Of a DNA stretch of 64,000 nt, positions 17,098-61,534 are shown in pieces. This stretch comes from Apostichopus japonicus (taxonomy: Eukaryota; Echinodermata; Holothuroidea; Aspidochirotida; Stichopodidae). Under the pieces are notes generated by a model. That model was not told where the DNA came from. It worked only from the letters and a program-made list of their open reading frames with translations, and did not search any database. The DNA is taken from the NCBI RefSeq assembly GCF_037975245.1, contig NC_092574.1, positions 18,624,713-18,688,712 of the forward strand, written 5' to 3'. Position 1 is the first letter of the stretch; each line of letters opens with the position of its first letter. A program made the translations under genes and the position numbers.

Positions 17098-17595
17098 AGC
17101 AGCATTCACCAGATGCAGCATTTAGCAGATGCAGCATTCACCAGATGCAGCATTTAATAGATGCAGCATTTAGCAGATGCAGCATTCACCAGATGCAGCA
17201 TTTAATAGATGCAGCATTCACCAGATGCAGCATTTACCAGATGCAGCATTCACCAGATGCAGCATTTAATAGATGCAGCATTTACCAGATGCAGCATTTA
17301 CCAGATGCAGCATTTAACAGATGCAGCATTTAATAGATGCAGCATTTAATAGATGCAGCATTTAACAGATGCAGCATTTAATAGATGCAGCATTTAATAG
17401 ATGCAGCATTTAACAGATGCAGCATTTAATAGATGCAGCATTTAATAGATGCAGCATTCACCAGATGCAGCATTTAACAGGTGCAGCATTTAACAGATGC
17501 AGCATTTAACAGATGCAGCATTTAACAGATGCAGCATTTAACAGATGCAGCATTTAATAGATGCAGCATTTAATAGATGCAGCATTTACCAGATA
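17098..17595. repeat. 16-bp minisatellite, about 31 units
   Basis: Nearly perfect tandem units ATGCAGCATTTAACAG, with aatag, ccag and gcag variants. It starts two bases after the LIAS stop, so it lies in the 3' UTR if the poly(A) signal at 17698 is used. Confidence 0.95.
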
Positions 17596-17703: not shown

Positions 17704-18660
17704 TGAACTTGAGAGAAAATGAAATTTGTTGGTATAGGTGCCTCTGCAGATGATCAATACCTGGGGAACATCAAAATATTTTTAAAAAATGCACCTATAT
17801 GTATGACACTTCATTAGCAGGTGCATCTAGGCCTAACATGTATGTTGTTCGTAAAACTCTGAACTGAGGTTGCTATTGTCATAGAGTGATCAAGGGGATT
17901 AATAGCTAATTGCACCCTTCATGAAGAAACAGAAAGACTTAATAACATTTTTCAGAAAAATGTTACTTCCATGAAAATGAGCTAGGTGGTGGGAGATGTA
18001 ATATGAAATAAAAGTTAAAAATAAAATCAATAGTTTTTGGCAATAACTTCTTGCCTCTGTACTGCCTATAAATGCTCTATCATATCAAAATACATTTGCA
18101 AGATGTTTCTTTCTCTCTAACGCAGCCAGTTTGGACATTGATTCAAGGACTGGTCTTAAACACCATTGAGAATGCTTTCTTTGGACATACCTATGATGCC
18201 AGAACAGTAGAAAAAAATTGTCACTGATGAATAAGCTGAATGCTACAACACTCAAAGAATTCATTCTCACTGAGACAATTATTTGAACTGACAATTGTCA
18301 ATGTCTGGGAATCATTTTATGGGTGAAGGAAAATAATCAAGAGTTACAGCAAGCTGATCCCACTACTTAAAGAATAGCCTGCCCATATTTTATTTGAAAA
18401 TTATATCTCAGTTTGTGCTCTGTGTGTTTACAGTGTTTGAAAATGGTAAAGCCATTTGCATTTTGCAAACCCATCTCTGTTACAAAAAACAAAAATACCA
18501 ATGTCATGGAGAAACTGTGACTTTTGACACTGGTTCGAGTGAGTGAACCAATGCAAGTGTTGTGAACTGATAAACCATGTCACTTCATTATATTGAGAGC
18601 AATTGTAACTGTCCCAGATTAGGTTATCAGGAAAATGTGGATAAATACTGCAAAAAACAT
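17704..18660. other. Spacer between convergent LIAS and HSPA4
   Basis: AT-rich, no recognised genes or repeats. The 140-bp tandem array follows. Confidence 0.4.
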
Positions 18661-18663
18661 GTA

Positions 18664-19740
18664 TTAATTGGAATACTTTGATATTACTATGACATTAACT
18701 ACCATGTAGACAACACTGTCTAATAACAGACAGTGATATCACTTAGAAGGAGAGATAATAATGTCATGTTGTTTTGTTGAAAGAATAAGGAGCTTGAACC
18801 GTCTGTTGAGTTGGAATACTTTGATATTTCTATCACATTAACTACCCTGTAGAAGACACTGTCTAGTAACAGACAGTGATATCACTTAGAAGAGATAATA
18901 ATGTCATCTTGTTTTATTGAAATAATGAGGAGCTGGAACCGTGTGTTAATTGGAATACTTTGATATTACTATGACATTAACTACCCTGTAGATAACCTGT
19001 TTAGTAACAGACAGTGATATCACTTTCAAAAAAAGATGATAATGTTATCTTGTTTCATTGAAAGAATAAGTAGCTCAAACTGTGTGTTAAGTGGAATAAT
19101 TTGATATTACTATGATATTAACTACCCTGTAGATAACCTGTTTAGTAACAGACAGTGATATCACTTAGAAGAAATGGTGATAATGCTATCTTGTAGCTCA
19201 AACCGTGTGTTAATTGGAATACTTTGATATTACTATTACATTAACTACCCTGTAGACGACAGTCTAAAACAGACAGTGATATCACTTAAAAGAAAAGATG
19301 ATAATGTTATCTTGTTTCATTGAAAGAATAAGTAGCTCGAACTGTGTGTTAATTGGAATAATTTGATATTACTATGATATTAACTACCCTGTAGATAACC
19401 TGTTTAGTAACAGAGAGTGATATCACTTAGAAGAAATGGTGATAATGCTATCTTGTTTTATTGAAAGAATAAGGAGCTTGAACCGTGTTAATTTGGTATA
19501 CTAATTTGATATTACTATCACATTAACTACTCTGTCCAGTAACAGACAGTGATATCACTTATAAGAAAAGATGATGTCATCTTGCTTTATTGAATTACTG
19601 AATAACTATTGAATTGGAATACTTGATAGGACTATCACATTAACTACCCTGTAGACGACACACAGTCATATCACTTAGGAGTAAATGTGAAATTGCTCAA
19701 TATTATTAAATGAGTGAGTAGCTCAAACCGTGAGTAAAGT
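18664..19740. repeat. 140-bp tandem repeat, eight units
   Basis: Units begin ttaattggaatactttgata near 18664, 18810, 18949, 19090, 19213, 19352, 19490 and 19613. Each carries cagacagtgatatcactt, a run like gataatgttatcttgtt, and a close like agctcaaaccgtgtg. Two units are about 17 bases shorter than the rest. Divergence between units is moderate. Confidence 0.92.
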
Positions 19741-21511: not shown

Positions 21512-40435
<18,924 letters not shown>

Positions 40436-52775: not shown

Positions 52776-53936
52776 TCTGCATGTATCAATTGCTCCAATA
52801 TTCACACAAACACAATGAATGACATGGAAGCAAGACAAAATTTACCCCTAAAGAATGTGATTCTGTATTGTATGTATTATGGTCTACTAGTACTTGGTAA
52901 GCTGTTTTAACTTAACTTATTCACATCAGGGAATAAATTACCTGGCAGTATTCATGTTCATATAGCAAAATGCGATACGTTGCAAATTACATTATACCAG
53001 TGAAAAGATTTATAGTACTTTTGTACACAGGAACCATTGTATTTTCTAAGAGATGATTTTCAGAGGCTTCAAAGCTGTTACTGTAGTACATAAAATTAGA
53101 AAGATCACTAAATCATTCCCTGTATTTACAACTTGTAATGTGAAGTTTGAAGCTTCAAAGCTCCTAGTACACAAAATTTGAAAGATCACTACATTATTTC
53201 CTGTATTTACAACTTGTTATTTGAAGTAAAGCTAGATTTTAGCCCACAGATCATAAGTACATTTCTTGTGCATATGACAAACTGTGCACAGGAAGGACCT
53301 ACAGTTTATAAAAGAGCCTAATCATGGATTTCTATGTGTACAAGGTTCAGTAAACAATAAGTGCATTACTTATCATATCTGTTTGAGAGATGATTAGCAC
53401 TGGGGTTAATGTATAAATAACTCGGATAAAGTTCATATAAAGTGTTTGCTAGAATGTTCTGCACAAATCAAACTTAAGAAAAAAACCTCACTGTCACTGA
53501 TGGCTGCTACAGAATAAACTTTGAACTTTAGGAAAGAAACAATTTCAACAAATTTATAGGCAAAAAATGATATATTTTACATGTAGTTGATATAGTCAAT
53601 CTTCACAAACTCATAGCACATGAGTGATTGAGAAGTGAGAAACGGATTTAAGCGATCACTACCGACCGTAGGTAATCTAGACTTTTCAAAGTCCACCTTG
53701 AAACACAGTTCACCCAGGCTACTCCCGATGTGATTACAATGAATCAATCACTGCACATTATGTAGTCATCTTTTCAGTCGCTCTGTGTTCCCTAAATTGT
53801 TTCCCATAAAGGACACTTTGAACACAAAGTTCTCTGTATAGGTGAACATTTAAATCTGCCCACAGCTTTTATGAAGCAGATTTACATGTCAAAGAATGTA
53901 CCACAGGCTACTGAAGTGGTGGAAACAATACTTCTT
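52776..53936. other. Spacer left of the transposon
   Basis: AT-rich. It contains a diverged tandem pair of about 85 bases at 53070-53220, sharing gaaagatcact and cctgtatttacaacttgt. No genes seen. Confidence 0.4.
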
Positions 53937-53940
53937 TTAA

Positions 53941-53957
53941 AGGTCAAGCGACACGTA
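53941..53957 (+). repeat. Left terminal inverted repeat
   Basis: 17 bases beginning AGGTCAAG directly after TTAA. They match the right end in inverse orientation at 16 of 17 positions. Confidence 0.9.
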
Positions 53958-54510
53958 GACTTGACATTACATAATATTAAACTTAACAATTCTTACATTA
54001 ACAAAAACCCAACACCGCGATTTTTTTCCGTCTCCAAAGGGGTAGAAATCGGTAAAAAGTACTATTACGTAATAGATTCAGTGACGTCACGGGGGGGAGC
54101 GCAGAAGAGTGCAAACTGTATATGTTCTGCGCAGTGCATTGGGTATGGAGAAATCTCAAACTTCTCGGAAATATTACCTTTTTCAGCAGTCTGTTACAAG
54201 AAAGTTAAGATTTGGATTAAGATGAAAAATCACAAATTGATACATAAGACATCGAACAAAACATCCATTGACTTCTTTTTTCATAAATTCCTTGCATTTT
54301 CTTCCTATCAAGCAACATAAACTCTGCAAAAATCGGCTAGATTGACTCGTTCAGGGAAAGCCGAAAACAAATGACGTCATTTGTTTACCAAGTCGAAAGT
54401 GCATGATATCGTCGCTTGGAACTGCTTATTGCTATACCACATACAGTTTCTATACACGCACTGTAGTACACATATATACACAGCACAGCATAGCTTATAC
54501 ATATCGCAAA

Positions 54511-56330
54511 ATGGCTGCCGGTGGCATTGACACACAGTATTTAGATAGCAATGGCGAAGAAGTAAGGGAAATGGAGGACTTGGTGGACGATCGTGGGGAA
54601 GTTTTTCCCTACATGTTCGAACCGGAGACCAGCGAAGAGGAAGCGGGATCGGACAGCGATGTCGAAATTGATCGTCTTGACGGAATATAACGGTAACGTT
54701 ACGCCAAGCGTACTATACTGTATATAGGATAGTTGTGTCACTAGTTAGGCCTAGAACCGATAAATGTTTCCTAACTTTGCTCATACACTTAGCTAGCCAA
54801 TTTGTTGATGGGGCAGCAAAATAAACATGAATGTGCGGTCGAGTTAAGTTAAGGAAGTTACTATTTTCCTTAAAAGTTGTGGCAGCACATGCCCCAGGAA
54901 CATGTCACACAGACATATTTCATTTGGTTAGTAGATTGAAGGAGCCAATTGGAAGAGTGCACAACAAATTCAGAGGTGGCCTATTATTAATTTCCTAGCA
55001 GTTGTAGGCCTAGTGGCAAATTAGTGAAGTTACCACAAATCAGGGAAAGGGTGGGGGGAGGGAGGTGGCACCTCACACCAGCTTTTTGTCATTTCCGCTT
55101 GAGCTAATTTCATAACCAGATTTTCTCAATCTAGGGAATGTTCAGAAGTGGGAAAGAGTTGGAAACGAGGCAACATCGGCCTGTTTTATTTTCCTTTGCA
55201 GCATTGTCCCAACAGAGGCAAGACTTCTAAGAAGAGGCTACCCCCTCCTTGCTAGTGATGTTACTTGTAAGGAGCTTCAACGGTAGATTGCCCTTCAGAG
55301 GTACCCCTTTTCTATTTTGACATGTTAGTACAGTATGCCCCAATAATTGAGGATGGTATGAATTAATTGAATTGGCTCTTTACTATTTGAACTGGTTTGT
55401 ATTGTTTACAGGTGTCATTGTGGCCAATGTGCTGTGATGCCTACAGCAAGGCAGTGTAGATGCTGCAGCGAAATAGATAAGTAAGGACTGTGATGGATGA
55501 AGAAGGTGCTGCATGCATCACCTTACACCCAGGTTTTGAAGCTATGTGCCTGAACCCATTGTTTCTTCAGACAGCCTACTACATGTACCGTCAACAGTAT
55601 GGTGGACGTGCACAGGAAAACAGGATCTAAGAGTAAGTATAGAATACATTATTTTTGTTGTATACCTTTATTCATTGCTCTGACCTGCTGTTGAAAGATG
55701 TAACAATACAGAGGGTGTATTCATAGTTTAGTTTTGTTGCGTTGTGAAAGGAATAACATTAAGATATAGATTTGATCAAGAAATTTTGTGCACCATGTTC
55801 AAAACCTGCTTCTGATTAGGTCATTTTGTCCAAAAACTGGTGTAATGCCCTTGAGGTTAACCCTTATCATGCTGACTGACATAGTAGTCATTAACACTGA
55901 GCCATGGAACCAAATGCCACACAAAAAATGTCCACCATGCTTGTGCACGATCCATTTACAAATTTTAGTCCCCGAGATACAATGATCAGTTTGTATAAAT
56001 GGCATAGCTAGGCTTACTTTAGGGGAGGCAGATTTAGGGGCCAAGCAAATTCTGGAAATCATATAGAAATTTATTTTAAAATTGACGTCCCCAGATGGCA
56101 ACCAAGCTTTTGTGTGTCTTCATCTTTTATAGCTGGTTTTCATATGATTATTTTACAGGAAATACAGACACACAGCATACAGACAACTTGCACGGATGAG
56201 CTAGCAGTTTTTAGGGAAGGAGATTTGTGTTGTTCTCCCATCCTATGCATTAAGGAGGATTAGAGAAGCTTTACCATCTGAACAGTATGAAGGATTTAAA
56301 TTATCAAGACTGAGAATGTGGACTGTTTAA
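54511..56330 (+). pseudogene. P2X7 C-terminal (ballast) domain protein, broken
   Basis: Three exons: 54511-54690 (ATG in a good context; acidic region with YMFEPETSEEE), 55412-55632 and 56159-56330. Exon 2 carries the cysteine cluster CHCGQCAVMPTARQCRCC and then CITLHPGFEAMCLN and QTAYYMYRQQYGG. Exon 3 carries YRHTAYRQLAR, LGKEICVVLPSYALRRIRE and EGFKLS. These are the conserved blocks of the cytoplasmic C-terminal domain of P2X7 receptors, here without any channel domain. The lesions are a TAA at 54688, a one-base frame break near 55481, a TAA at 55628 and a TAG at 56202 where the family usually has Trp. AATAAA follows at 56521. The Cys/His pattern suggests metal binding. The gene lies inside the TTAA transposon, convergent with the THAP gene. 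Confidence 0.85.
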
Positions 56331-57156
56331 GTGTTTATGCCAAGTCATAGTATCATTTCTGCAAAGTTTTATAGAAACAGGGTTCAGTCCTGTCTGTTTT
56401 GTGGCTGAATGGTGAACATTTTGGAATTCCAGCTTACATTTTTCTGGTTCATGGTATTAACTACAATCTTGGATGAAATTTTACACTTTCAAGTTTGGGA
56501 AGTACATAACAGTCATAAATAATAAAAACTCAAGTTAATTTTTTGTATGTATTCTCTCTTGTAAGCAAAGCTGTCACTTCTAGTAGCCTGCCAACAAAAT
56601 CTGGATGATTGAAATCTCAAATATACTAGGTTAAAATAGAAGAATAGTTTGAATAAAGTACCCTAAACCACTATGTCAATGGGATCTGGAGAGCTTAGGC
56701 TTTCATTTTAATAAAAGTGTAATGAGAATCAATCTGAAATTGTTCATTAATCCATGGAATATCAAGGTTACTTGATCATAAATGAGATAAAAAAAAATCA
56801 CATTTTATCCCATGTGGGGAACAAACAGCAAATTTCTGTAAAAAAAAAAAAATAGTAAGTCAGCATGAAATTTATATTTATGAAATCTAAGCTCTCTAGA
56901 AAGGAATACTTGTCATTGGAACTTTTTTTTAAATATAATGTTATCATTACTAATAGTTAGTTACAATGGAAACCAGATGTAAGTAAAACTTGAATGTAAA
57001 ACTTTAGCAACTTCCCTAAAGGCTGGTAGCGACCTGTTAATTAACACTGCTCTGCAGCTGTGCCATACACCATGTGAACAGACGATTCACAGAGTCGATT
57101 GCTCCCCACTACAATGAAACAAAATTAGAACTTGGGAGGCCATCAACTACAGTACT

Positions 57157-59740
57157 TCAGCAAAGCTTTTGAAATCTGCTTCGGTGTTGTTTTATGGCAT
57201 CCTCATTGTTCGGATGAACATAGGAGCTTGCAAGGGGTGGGGGCTCTTTTCTGACAGGAACAGGACACTCCTCTCCCAGAGTTCCACTTCTGCAGAAGTT
57301 GTTGCAAGCAGTCAAGAAGTTCCCATACATAATCTGTAGAATAGTAAAGATATGAAGAATAATATAATAATAGTTCATAAAAACATACCATTTAGATAGA
57401 GGCATTCCAATCACTCCATTTCGGTCAATAGGCATGGCACAGTTGTCGGTCAAGTCTTTGGATGCCCAACTAAGGCGACAGCTGAGTACACCTCAATTGG
57501 TGTGGATACATGGGTCAGGTTTTACCTGACAACTTGTGCCTGAACAATTCCAATATATTTTTTACTGATTACAACAAAAACCCTACACCTGTTTGTGCAC
57601 CTAATATTATGGATTATGTAATCTTCAGCAGGATGTGTGGTCATTGTCTCAGTAGCTTAACCACTGATTATGTAGTAAAGTAAACATGTGGACAGAGTAA
57701 CATCCTGTCCCATCCCCTTGTAATCCATGGTAAAAGAGTGTATAAGATGCAACTTTCACCATTTGTATTCAGTAGCAGATATCCAGCCAAGTGAAGATAT
57801 AATATACTCTGTTAAATCCAACTACTTGTTTGTGCCTTTATTTCTTGTTCACATACAGCTGTGACAACTCTACCACATACAGTATGTATATGCTAATTGA
57901 AGTAAAGACTGATGGCCTCACCACACATTCCAGACTGCCCCACAGTGTTGGTGTCAAAATTAATAATGATCCTCTTTCCAGAAAGTTATGGCACCAATTG
58001 ATTTTCCAGACTAATCTACTGTCAATCTTGAAAATTACCTTGAAGGGTCATCTTTGTCATGTTCAGATGAGTTAACTGATGGAGTGTAGTCCGGACTACC
58101 TGGCGGTTTTTCGGTGTATCCCGATGTGGATGCCACAGCAGCAGACGGACCATCATCGCCACTGTGAGATGGCCCTGGTTGCTTTGATGGTGTTCTTGTC
58201 TCTGTTGGTCCAGTCAGCAACTTCAATGGTGGTAGGGGGACCAGTGAACACTGGACTTCTACATGTGTTACATTCACTGAAAATTAGAATAAACGCTTAT
58301 TATACCACACACATATAGTAGGCTGCTCTTGGACAGGGGTCAGCTGCCTAGATGGTTCACTTATCTTTTCTGAAGGAGAGCATATCCTCCTGCTTTATGT
58401 GGCTGCAAAAATATGGGCCACTCACACCATGAGCATTGCAAATGACTTCAGCTTGGTTTCATATAGTATAACTACAATGTAATCTCCCTTCTCTCAGTAA
58501 CTATAGCTGTAGCCTTTATATTTTCCTGTGAAGCCATCAAGTATAGCCTCCTCAACCACTCTCGTCAGGCAGGCGGATATGATGGATAAAATACAATGTA
58601 TATTATCCCCTAGTCAGCCTGCCCGATGTGCAGTTTTAATTGCTATTTTGCTTTCAACGAGTACTGTTTCTAAAATTTTGGCCCCTGTACTCACTTCTGC
58701 TATAGAATACTCTATAGATGTATGAAAGTTTTCCATTCTTCCTTGTATTATCCTAGCTTACACTTCTCTACCACATTTTCTCCCCCCAACCCCCCTGCCT
58801 CCTTTTTGTCTGGTAGCTTGCCCCCCCCCCATATACATGCCTCAATGTTTTACTGGTGGAGATTCCTTGTATCCCGTTCAAAACTGGCTACTTAAATCTT
58901 TAATGCCTGTCACCACCCTCCCCCCCCCCCTTACTTTCCCAACTGTTTTTCGGTAATTACAAGCACATGTATATAAGATCATGCTACCTTTAGATGGAGA
59001 TGTACATTCTGCAGAATCCTGCCTTTATTTTCACTGCAGTTGGTTGGGGAACAGCTTCTAGATTAATCTAAGTATTGAAAATTGGGAAAGAAAATAACAA
59101 GGAAGTTATGAAAGTTCATTTAAGAAAGTAGTTTGATATGTTTGAAAGTACCTGTCACAAGCGTTTTCTCTTGCAACAAAAATTGCAGCTCTACCAAAAA
59201 AATGGCAAAATATAAGGATGTCATTTACTGTGAAACATATGAGCTATGACTCTGAGTATATAGATAGGTGGGAGCACATTATAATATTGGGCAAAATGAC
59301 ATGTAAACATCTTATGCTTGTTATTCTGGATTTTTCATGATGTACCACAAATGAAAGTTAATATAGCCCTAGCCTACGCCTAACTTTATCGTCGCCATAC
59401 CTAATTTAGGGCCTAACTAACTGAACGAAATTATAAGAATTAGCCTACTGTAAGATAGTAATAATACCAAGTTAGTTATTGTTGTAGTAGGCCTAGGCCA
59501 GAAAATACACTTACTCTTTTCCGATCCAGCTTCGCAACTACTGGTCTACTTGTTTCTATATCTCCTCGAGATTTGAAGATACTTTCTCCAAATAGAGAAG
59601 GAACGGCATTGTCTTGTAGACGGCGAGCCGTTGGTGTTCCAAGTCCAAGTTGCGCGGATAGGCGATAGGAATCGAAACTTTAACTGGTGAAGGGCGCACT
59701 GCACACATAAGATTCGCTCGAAGGTCCAAGCCAATCTTTA
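57157..59740 (-). pseudogene. THAP-domain transposase remnant, catalytic core missing
   Basis: Minus-strand pieces are as follows. Exon 59740-59515 carries the second half of a THAP zinc finger: DWLGPSSESYVCSAPF, then after a TAA at 59682-59680, SFDSYRLSAQLGLGTPTA and the typical closing LQDNAVPSLF. The expected C-x2-H is C-x2-P, so the zinc ligand His is lost. Exon 58276-58039 is a polar linker with GPSHSGDDGPSAAVAST and SPDYTPSVNSS. The terminal exon 57333-57157 ends PPPLASSYVHPNNEDAIKQH plus RSRFQKLC and a stop, resembling the C-terminus of THAP/Kolobok-type transposases. Its first half reads better in another frame (DYVWELLDCLQQLL), implying a frameshift. The several-hundred-residue DDE core that should lie between linker and C-terminus is absent from the 700 bases available. 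Confidence 0.7.
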
Positions 59741-60083
59741 CTTATAGGCAGCTAGGCTGGCTGAGTGCACTGGTACTAAGCTATCGCTGTATACAGTGTT
59801 TGACGAACACGAAACTTTCTTGTACAGTTGTGCACCCATTCTCATCTGATATTTTGTTTACTGTTCGTGACGTATTGTTTACGGCTTTGATCTCCGTTAG
59901 CATATTAGGCATACTTAGTTTTGGTAACATTGGCGGTTCCCTCCGTGACGTCATTATCTTTCGGAATTAGCTTGGTTATTAACTTAATTAAAACAGAAAA
60001 GAAACAATTGTGGAACTCCAAATTTGGAATATAGGGTTTTGATATGTAGCTTTTCAATTTGTGTAAGTTTGAAGGAAATCTGT

Positions 60084-60100
60084 TACGTGTCACTTGACCT
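60084..60100 (-). repeat. Right terminal inverted repeat
   Basis: 17 bases ending CTTGACCT directly before TTAA; inverse partner of 53941-53957. Confidence 0.9.
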
Positions 60101-60104
60101 TTAA

Positions 60105-61534
60105 GCAGTCAGTCATAACTTCCACCAAAATACTAAGAGCAGTGGATAATCAAAAATACAATGCAGCTTTTTGTTATTTATTTTCCAATTGTTACTATCA
60201 CAACTCAAAAAGTTCTTCATAAGAAAACCATTTAAATTTAATGTTTAATTTAAAAAGACTACAATAACATCTTATTTAATTATGACATACTGAGTACTAT
60301 AAACCTACAGTAATAAAATGAGGCATTAAAATATCTCACTAGTTGGGTACCTGCTAGGAAATTTTGTCAAAATTAGAAAATAAATCTATAGGAACTGCCT
60401 GCTTCTGTCCATAGTAGGTGGCTTTAACTTTTATGTTCTTGTTTATTTTCTAAAAAGTTAAAAATATCCATTCAGCCAACTTCCTTGAATTACGCTCCTA
60501 GGTCCTTATAACAGTATTAATCCTGTGACGGCACATGAAATCCAGGACTGCCCTCTGAAATCAGGGACGTCTAGTCATCATGACGTGGATGGTCCCAGTC
60601 TTTTTCATTAAATAACATTACGCTCAGTGACCAAATCCATTCAAATTTCCTGTCACTTCTGATTTGATATCATCAAGGCTATTGTAAGTTTTGGAACATT
60701 TTAAGACATGCTATAATGATGGGATCAAGATTCCATACTATTAAGTACTGCACATACACAAGATAAGGTAATATCAGTTGTTGTTTGAAGTTTGGCTAAG
60801 TCTTAAACTCAATTCCAGGCATTCTTTGTAGCACTTGATCAACAGTGGTCTATAAGATAGTACTGTGTGGTTTACCTTTTTCTTTAAACGTTAGGGTTTG
60901 CTTTGAACAATGCAGTCACAAGCCTTTAAATATATGCAAACTGTCGTGGGCAAAAGCCTAAAAGGGTTGACGATCTTCCTACACGACAATCGTGAACATA
61001 ATTGCTTTTGTTTCAAATGCAAACATTTTCTTTGCCAATCTGGCCCAATAGACGGCCAAATGGGAGCTGAATTTCTGCCCACCCAGTAACCTCCCTGGTT
61101 ACTGTTAGTTGTATTTTGTAAAATCTGGAGCATAGGCCGATCCTGTTGCTGGGTATCAGAGTAAGGGGTTTCCCCTTCCCACCCCCCCCTTACACATTGG
61201 CGTATAACCTTACTTTGGCGTACGCGGTTGATAGTGTATACATTACGATTGCCTAATAATAGTCTCAGGCCTAACGTGGTATATACAGTATAACTTATAA
61301 GTGAATAAATCTAGCGTAGGTTAGGTAGGATGGTGACTTCGAAGTTCGGCCACTTAAGACTTAAAACACCCCAAAACTAAATCTTCTGGTCTAAATCACC
61401 AGAAAATATACTTCATATGGTGGGAGAATTGTGTTTTAGTACGATACACGGCCAAACTTTCTTTCCTGCAAACTGTTTTCACGTTGTTTTCCAAGAAAAT
61501 TCTTCGTGATTGTGGAACTGGTATTTCTTGCTAG
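60105..61534. other. Spacer right of the transposon
   Basis: AT-rich with no recognised gene. An inverted copy of the cgaagttcgg word at 61340 suggests a second, more decayed relative of the element that follows. Confidence 0.35.

Follow-up and report, generated by a model that had tools for sequence, protein, structure and literature searches.

What is a gene for the ballast domain of the P2X7 receptor doing beside THAP-coding sequence, between TTAA-flanked inverted repeats, in a holothurian genome? The question is raised by positions 53937-60104 of a 64,000-nt stretch of Apostichopus japonicus contig NC_092574.1 (the whole stretch is called the window below). Very probably the segment is a Kolobok DNA transposon, non-autonomous and of the Kol0 type, the lineage whose second gene, KolX, has been reported to have the cytoplasmic ballast fold (Kojima and Bao 2022, PMC9587614). 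This assignment was based on TTAA-flanked AG...CT ends, the recurrence of one structure in many dispersed copies, a KolX gene that is broken, a THAP remnant and the lack of a detectable transposase core.

The borders of the element, in window coordinates, are:

53937-53940, no strand: left TTAA target-site duplication, read directly from the sequence
53941-53957, plus strand: left 17-bp terminal inverted repeat, starting with AG (RR), from inverted-repeat comparison and genome-wide recurrence
60084-60100, minus strand: right 17-bp terminal inverted repeat, from inverted-repeat comparison and genome-wide recurrence
60101-60104, no strand: right TTAA target-site duplication, read from the sequence and by comparison of copies

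The preliminary description of this DNA had reported exact TTAA flanks and 17-bp inverted termini, and both were confirmed: inside the TTAA the inverted ends pair at 16 of 17 bases, with one mismatch, and positions 53937-53957 and 60084-60104, TTAA included, are 95% complementary over 21 nt (20/21 bases). Every end read in families A to E carried AG (RR...YY termini), the right end of family E and the ends of L002/L003 and L037/L038 standing outside this set. KolobokP is marked by long terminal direct repeats (about 450 or 660 bp); no long direct repeat was found in 53500-60600, where the longest direct-repeat family among the matches listed (20 of 38) was 37 nt.

Elements sharing the window's ends were defined as family A and were sought in the genome (671,581,487 bases, 35 contigs). 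With up to 3 mismatches, 148 + 144 end matches were obtained and the reversed pattern gave 16 + 32; a 30-base left-end pattern with at most 1 mismatch gave 35 + 30 against 0 + 0. At least 19 facing pairs of ends, the window's included, were spaced 6.06-6.25 kb apart (counted by eye among 100 of the 292 ends). Fourteen pairs were fetched, six of canonical size and eight others, with spacings of 5.6-9.6 kb, shorter derivatives lying outside the sample; all of them aligned to the window element. TTAA was present at both borders in 15/15 copies (window plus 14 fetched), which had been picked with a pattern that itself contains TTAA. The window element and the six canonical copies were 97.1-99.0% identical in pairwise comparison, gaps ignored. 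The 150-bp flanks of the 15 copies were unrelated, except for the two flanks of L017 and for the identical flanks of L013 and L014, which therefore represent one duplicated locus. In L017 the outer 150-bp flanks were 98.6% identical over 140 bp, and extra sequence was seen beyond its truncated left end.

On the plus strand of the element the following parts of the KolX gene were recognised:

54512-54690, plus strand: putative first exon, an acidic N-terminus starting MAAGG; its frame runs into a stop and its exon status is a prediction
55202-55282, plus strand: putative exon 2, with GT-AG borders read by eye
55412-55632, plus strand: exon 3, carrying the Zn cysteines of the ballast domain; its frame is broken and a private stop lies near its end
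56159-56330, plus strand: exon 4, which encodes the C-terminal portion of the ballast domain and contains a stop common to 11/11 main-group copies

When exons 3 and 4 were read through, with X at the breaks, the P2RX7_C profile matched above the Pfam cut-off (E = 1.2e-8), and the same read-through in L020 gave E = 3.8e-9. Seven single frames of the window were tested and yielded one weak P2RX7_C match (E = 0.17); the first-exon frame had no domain match in the Pfam test. The ballast gene announced for the plus strand is thus real, but it is split into exons and broken.

Ballast sequence was kept in all 15 family-A copies examined, at least 65 left ends of the family being present in the genome. 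The exon-4 stop was found in each of the 11 main-group copies (window, L007-L012, L016-L019) and was absent from the four others (L013, L014, L015, L020), which make up three loci. A break common to all of the main group is older than its spread, most simply because KolX was already broken when these copies multiplied. Further damage differed among copies: the exon-3 stop is private to the window, exon 2 is shortened in some copies, L007 has lost part of exon 3, and L015 carries an insertion in exon 4 and has no exon 2. In L020 the ballast exons 3 and 4 stay in one frame.

The minus strand holds the second group of features:

57157-57492, minus strand: open frame resembling the C-terminal end of a transposase, from by-eye comparison with L021 and L037 only
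58035-58283, minus strand: open frame, possibly a linker exon of the transposase gene, with no Pfam match
59515-59751, minus strand: damaged THAP piece with an AVPSLF box at its end, an in-frame stop and a Pfam match under the cut-off

A THAP protein had been proposed for this strand. A THAP-like remnant was indeed found there (E = 0.018; 16.2 bits against a Pfam cut-off of 23.9), but it is a mere piece interrupted by an in-frame stop. The corresponding piece in copy L020 was over the cut-off (E = 2.9e-5). Kolobok transposases have been described as carrying an AVPTIF box (PMC6004289), comparable to the AVPSLF of the window piece, and the piece appears to be the remnant of the N-terminal DNA-binding part of a lost transposase. 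The tail-to-tail order of the two genes given in the preliminary description was correct. Using the L021 transposase as query, tblastn detected no transposase core in the window or in L007-L020 and did not report the 57157-57492 frame; the same query matched pieces of 32-65% identity in L002, L024 and L033-L036. The window copy, like its close relatives, is a defective passenger in which both genes are broken, not a working two-gene element.

In-frame counterparts of both genes were found in other families. The family-C element L021, with TTAA ends 10.77 kb apart, contains a KolX frame of 183 amino acids (P2RX7_C E = 1.2e-33; E = 2.2e-23 against solved P2X7) tail to tail with a transposase frame of 548 amino acids; its left end, TTAA-AG, is common to L022, and its right end matches the left at 19 of 23 bases. 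L037 has frames of 550 (transposase) and 169 amino acids (KolX) in the same arrangement, and it is 99.8% identical to L038, on another contig, along nearly the whole 7 kb, the ends not being reached. By eye, both the L021 and the L037 transposases show GDAR/GDGR, VTDAH, DVWH and a later E; the DDE transposases of the Kolobok superfamily have C/DxxH between the second D and the last E. In family E (L035, L036) the two genes are again tail to tail and are in pieces, probably split by introns. The ends of families C, D and E were set where two copies stop matching; an automatic search for terminal inverted repeats found a pair in L026 and L027 and none in L021-L025, L031-L036 or L037-L038.

A pair of family-C ends 16.7 kb apart on contig C16 was considered as a giant element and rejected, the region being a palindromic inverted duplication with mirrored frames. 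This palindrome of about 16.7 kb (L028-L029, C16:19310134-19327005), whose mirrored frames resemble reverse transcriptase by eye, is either an assembly artefact or a true foldback; another pair of similar size is found at C16:19481523-19498215. In L025 a short-period repeat array, recognised from its repetitive frames, occupies 1646-2149, ahead of the family-B left end near 2455.

The genome was then considered as a whole. The P2RX7_C profile search gave 471 candidates, of which 150 were scored, all 150 over the cut-off; no match was found in 14 control genomes. Exact ends of the 3.2-kb family B (L025-L027), TTAA-AGWGGCCATGAC, occurred 218 + 211 times against 1 + 0. On contigs C1-C7, for which the listing of family-B ends is complete, 18 of 34 ballast matches lay inside B pairs, three near one B end and two near a family-C end. 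These 23 compare with a mean of 0.07 and a maximum of 1 in 100 shifted controls. Five more were within 8 kb of family-D ends, of which 100 of 103 were listed (mean 0.03, maximum 1 in controls), and three more stood beside a transposase, so that 31/34 were associated with Kolobok ends or a transposase; the distance limits of 5, 8 and 12 kb were our own choice. The remaining three are C2:5853532, C3:30828082 and C7:10566508; the scores at C7:10566508 follow a pattern resembling that of family E. The suggestion that transposition accounts for the expansion of ballast genes is supported by this distribution, such genes being often close to TTAA-flanked ends. Neither of the two outcomes that would have contradicted the preliminary description, family-A copies devoid of ballast sequence or ballast genes always remote from such ends, was encountered. 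Family-E-like ends (TTAAAGCAGCATTTTGCGTCATTTT, up to 3 mismatches; L035 end near 1650) were found 536 + 544 = 1080 times against 0 + 0. Of the TTAAAGCAGCATTTTGCGTCATTTT matches among the 100 listed, most have a single differing base and may represent short non-autonomous copies.

Linkage between the two genes was assessed from the transposase side. In the transposase search 79 of 311 candidates were scored, giving 107 rows; 53 rows entered the test, the remainder being by eye further pieces of the same loci, and merging reduced them to 50 loci. On the ballast side 55 of the 150 rows were used, mostly the higher-scoring ones, the other 95 adding no partner by eye. Among loci at least 43% identical to an in-frame transposase, 33/41 had a ballast match tail to tail, with gaps of 0.5-10.3 kb, against 0/9 of those below 43%, a line drawn after the data had been seen; one of the nine had a same-strand ballast match some 10 kb away. 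Judged by sequence, the Kol0 trait of a second gene KolX with a ballast fold is present. The ballast gene is thus regularly carried as the second gene of one Kolobok lineage, in agreement with the earlier proposal.

Several observations weigh against assigning the window element to Kol0. No transposase core was detected in family A itself, judged from 14 copies with spacings of 5.6-9.6 kb out of at least 65 left ends. None of the 150 scored ballast matches lay, by eye, inside the listed family-A pairs, and the ballast gene of this family shows only when its exons are joined; being split and broken, these genes fall below the genome search. In L021 no THAP exon was recognised and the transposase had no Pfam match, so that its class is judged by the motifs seen by eye, the element's ends and the partner gene. 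Of the 41 transposase loci, eight had no scored ballast partner. No autonomous family-A element was found: in the four longer copies, L016-L019, the additional sequence is of another kind and tblastn detected no transposase core, and no transposase match was seen by eye within 12 kb of any of 65 family-A left ends.

The neighbourhood of the two genes could in principle be fortuitous, two host genes, one for a ballast protein and one for a THAP protein, having come to lie between chance TTAA inverted repeats, and PMC7016195 treats the ballast-domain genes of many animals as host genes. The recurrence of the 6.2-kb unit, mostly with unrelated flanks, and the stop common to the whole main group make such a coincidence scarcely credible. 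A piggyBac-type element would likewise duplicate TTAA, and piggyBac relatives of KolX have been published (PMC9587614). This is a most improbable identification, since the ends begin with AG (RR), the Kolobok rule given in the same paper, a THAP remnant is present in the window, and the linked transposases show by eye DVWH between the second D and the last E.

There is also a slight chance that the ballast gene of the amplified copies is still functional and under selection, for example through other splicing. The uninterrupted exons 3-4 of L020 and the open KolX frames of other families speak for it, and the exon-4 stop shared by the main group speaks against it. The ratio of nonsynonymous to synonymous substitution rates (dN/dS) between L002 and L003, of another family, was 0.72, which is weak evidence of selection at best; between families, the synonymous sites of KolX were saturated.

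As a defective Kol0 transposon, the window element would have moved by cut-and-paste, probably through a transposase that an intact relative supplied in trans and that recognised its ends. KolX would be an accessory protein of the transposon, because KolX and a probable DDE-type transposase stand tail to tail in other lineages of this genome. Our best guess is a zinc-stabilised transposase partner predicted to act in trans, because copies with a broken KolX still spread.

Elsewhere in the window, an open frame at 27851-28339 on the minus strand matched the Hsp70 family (Pfam E = 2.2e-6); by its look we take it to be a large Hsp110/HSPA4-type protein. It is the sole host gene recognised, the window not having been surveyed for others. 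Tandem arrays lie at 17099-17594 (period 16, 31 copies) and 18660-19575 (period 141, with a 262-base variant).

The link between ballast genes and Kolobok, and the view that P2X7 arose when a P2X4-like gene fused with KolX, have already been published (Kojima and Bao 2022, PMC9587614); among the papers listed, no other tied KolX to P2X7 by title or abstract. The overall interpretation of the preliminary description therefore holds as to a second gene of a Kolobok lineage, but the window copy is defective and the idea was already in print. What is new is limited to the host species, the numbers of copies and the finding that copies with a broken KolX have spread. The present data independently confirm, in a further animal genome, that a Kolobok lineage has the P2X7 ballast domain as its second protein. 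Tentatively, and short of an even chance, nearly all ballast genes of A. japonicus may be Kolobok genes or their debris, in more than 100 copies, largely mobilised in trans with a dead KolX. If this were general, the stand-alone "ancient host domain" would in all cases be a protein of the transposon, and the "ancestral synteny" of invertebrate ballast genes could partly be linkage to the transposon's own transposase. The in-frame KolX-transposase pairs are material for testing the role of KolX.

Comparison with known systems places the element as follows. It shares with Kol0 (Kolobok-1_XT type) as described in PMC9587614 the TTAA target, the RR...YY ends, a second gene of P2X7 ballast fold and, in related elements, a probable DDE transposase; it differs in that the window copy is defective and the host is an echinoderm, the Kol0 hosts noted from that paper being vertebrates, annelids, cnidarians and sponges. 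That paper gives A. japonicus for KolobokP, a different lineage. The Xenopus T2-MITE/XKol system (PMC6004289) is alike in its TTAA target, AG ends and non-autonomous relatives and probably in its THAP and DDE transposase, and unlike in that neither "KolX" nor "P2X7" occurs in the main text of its description. The ZCD/ballast proteins and the P2X7 C-terminus (Rump et al. 2020, PMC7016195) have the same domain and zinc cysteines; in that account, whose main text does not contain "transpos", they are host genes numbering fewer than 10 per species, with no large families or expansion. Here 150 matches were scored, for the most part linked to transposons, so that ballast genes can pass one hundred per genome, and in at least the window's family it is broken copies that have spread.

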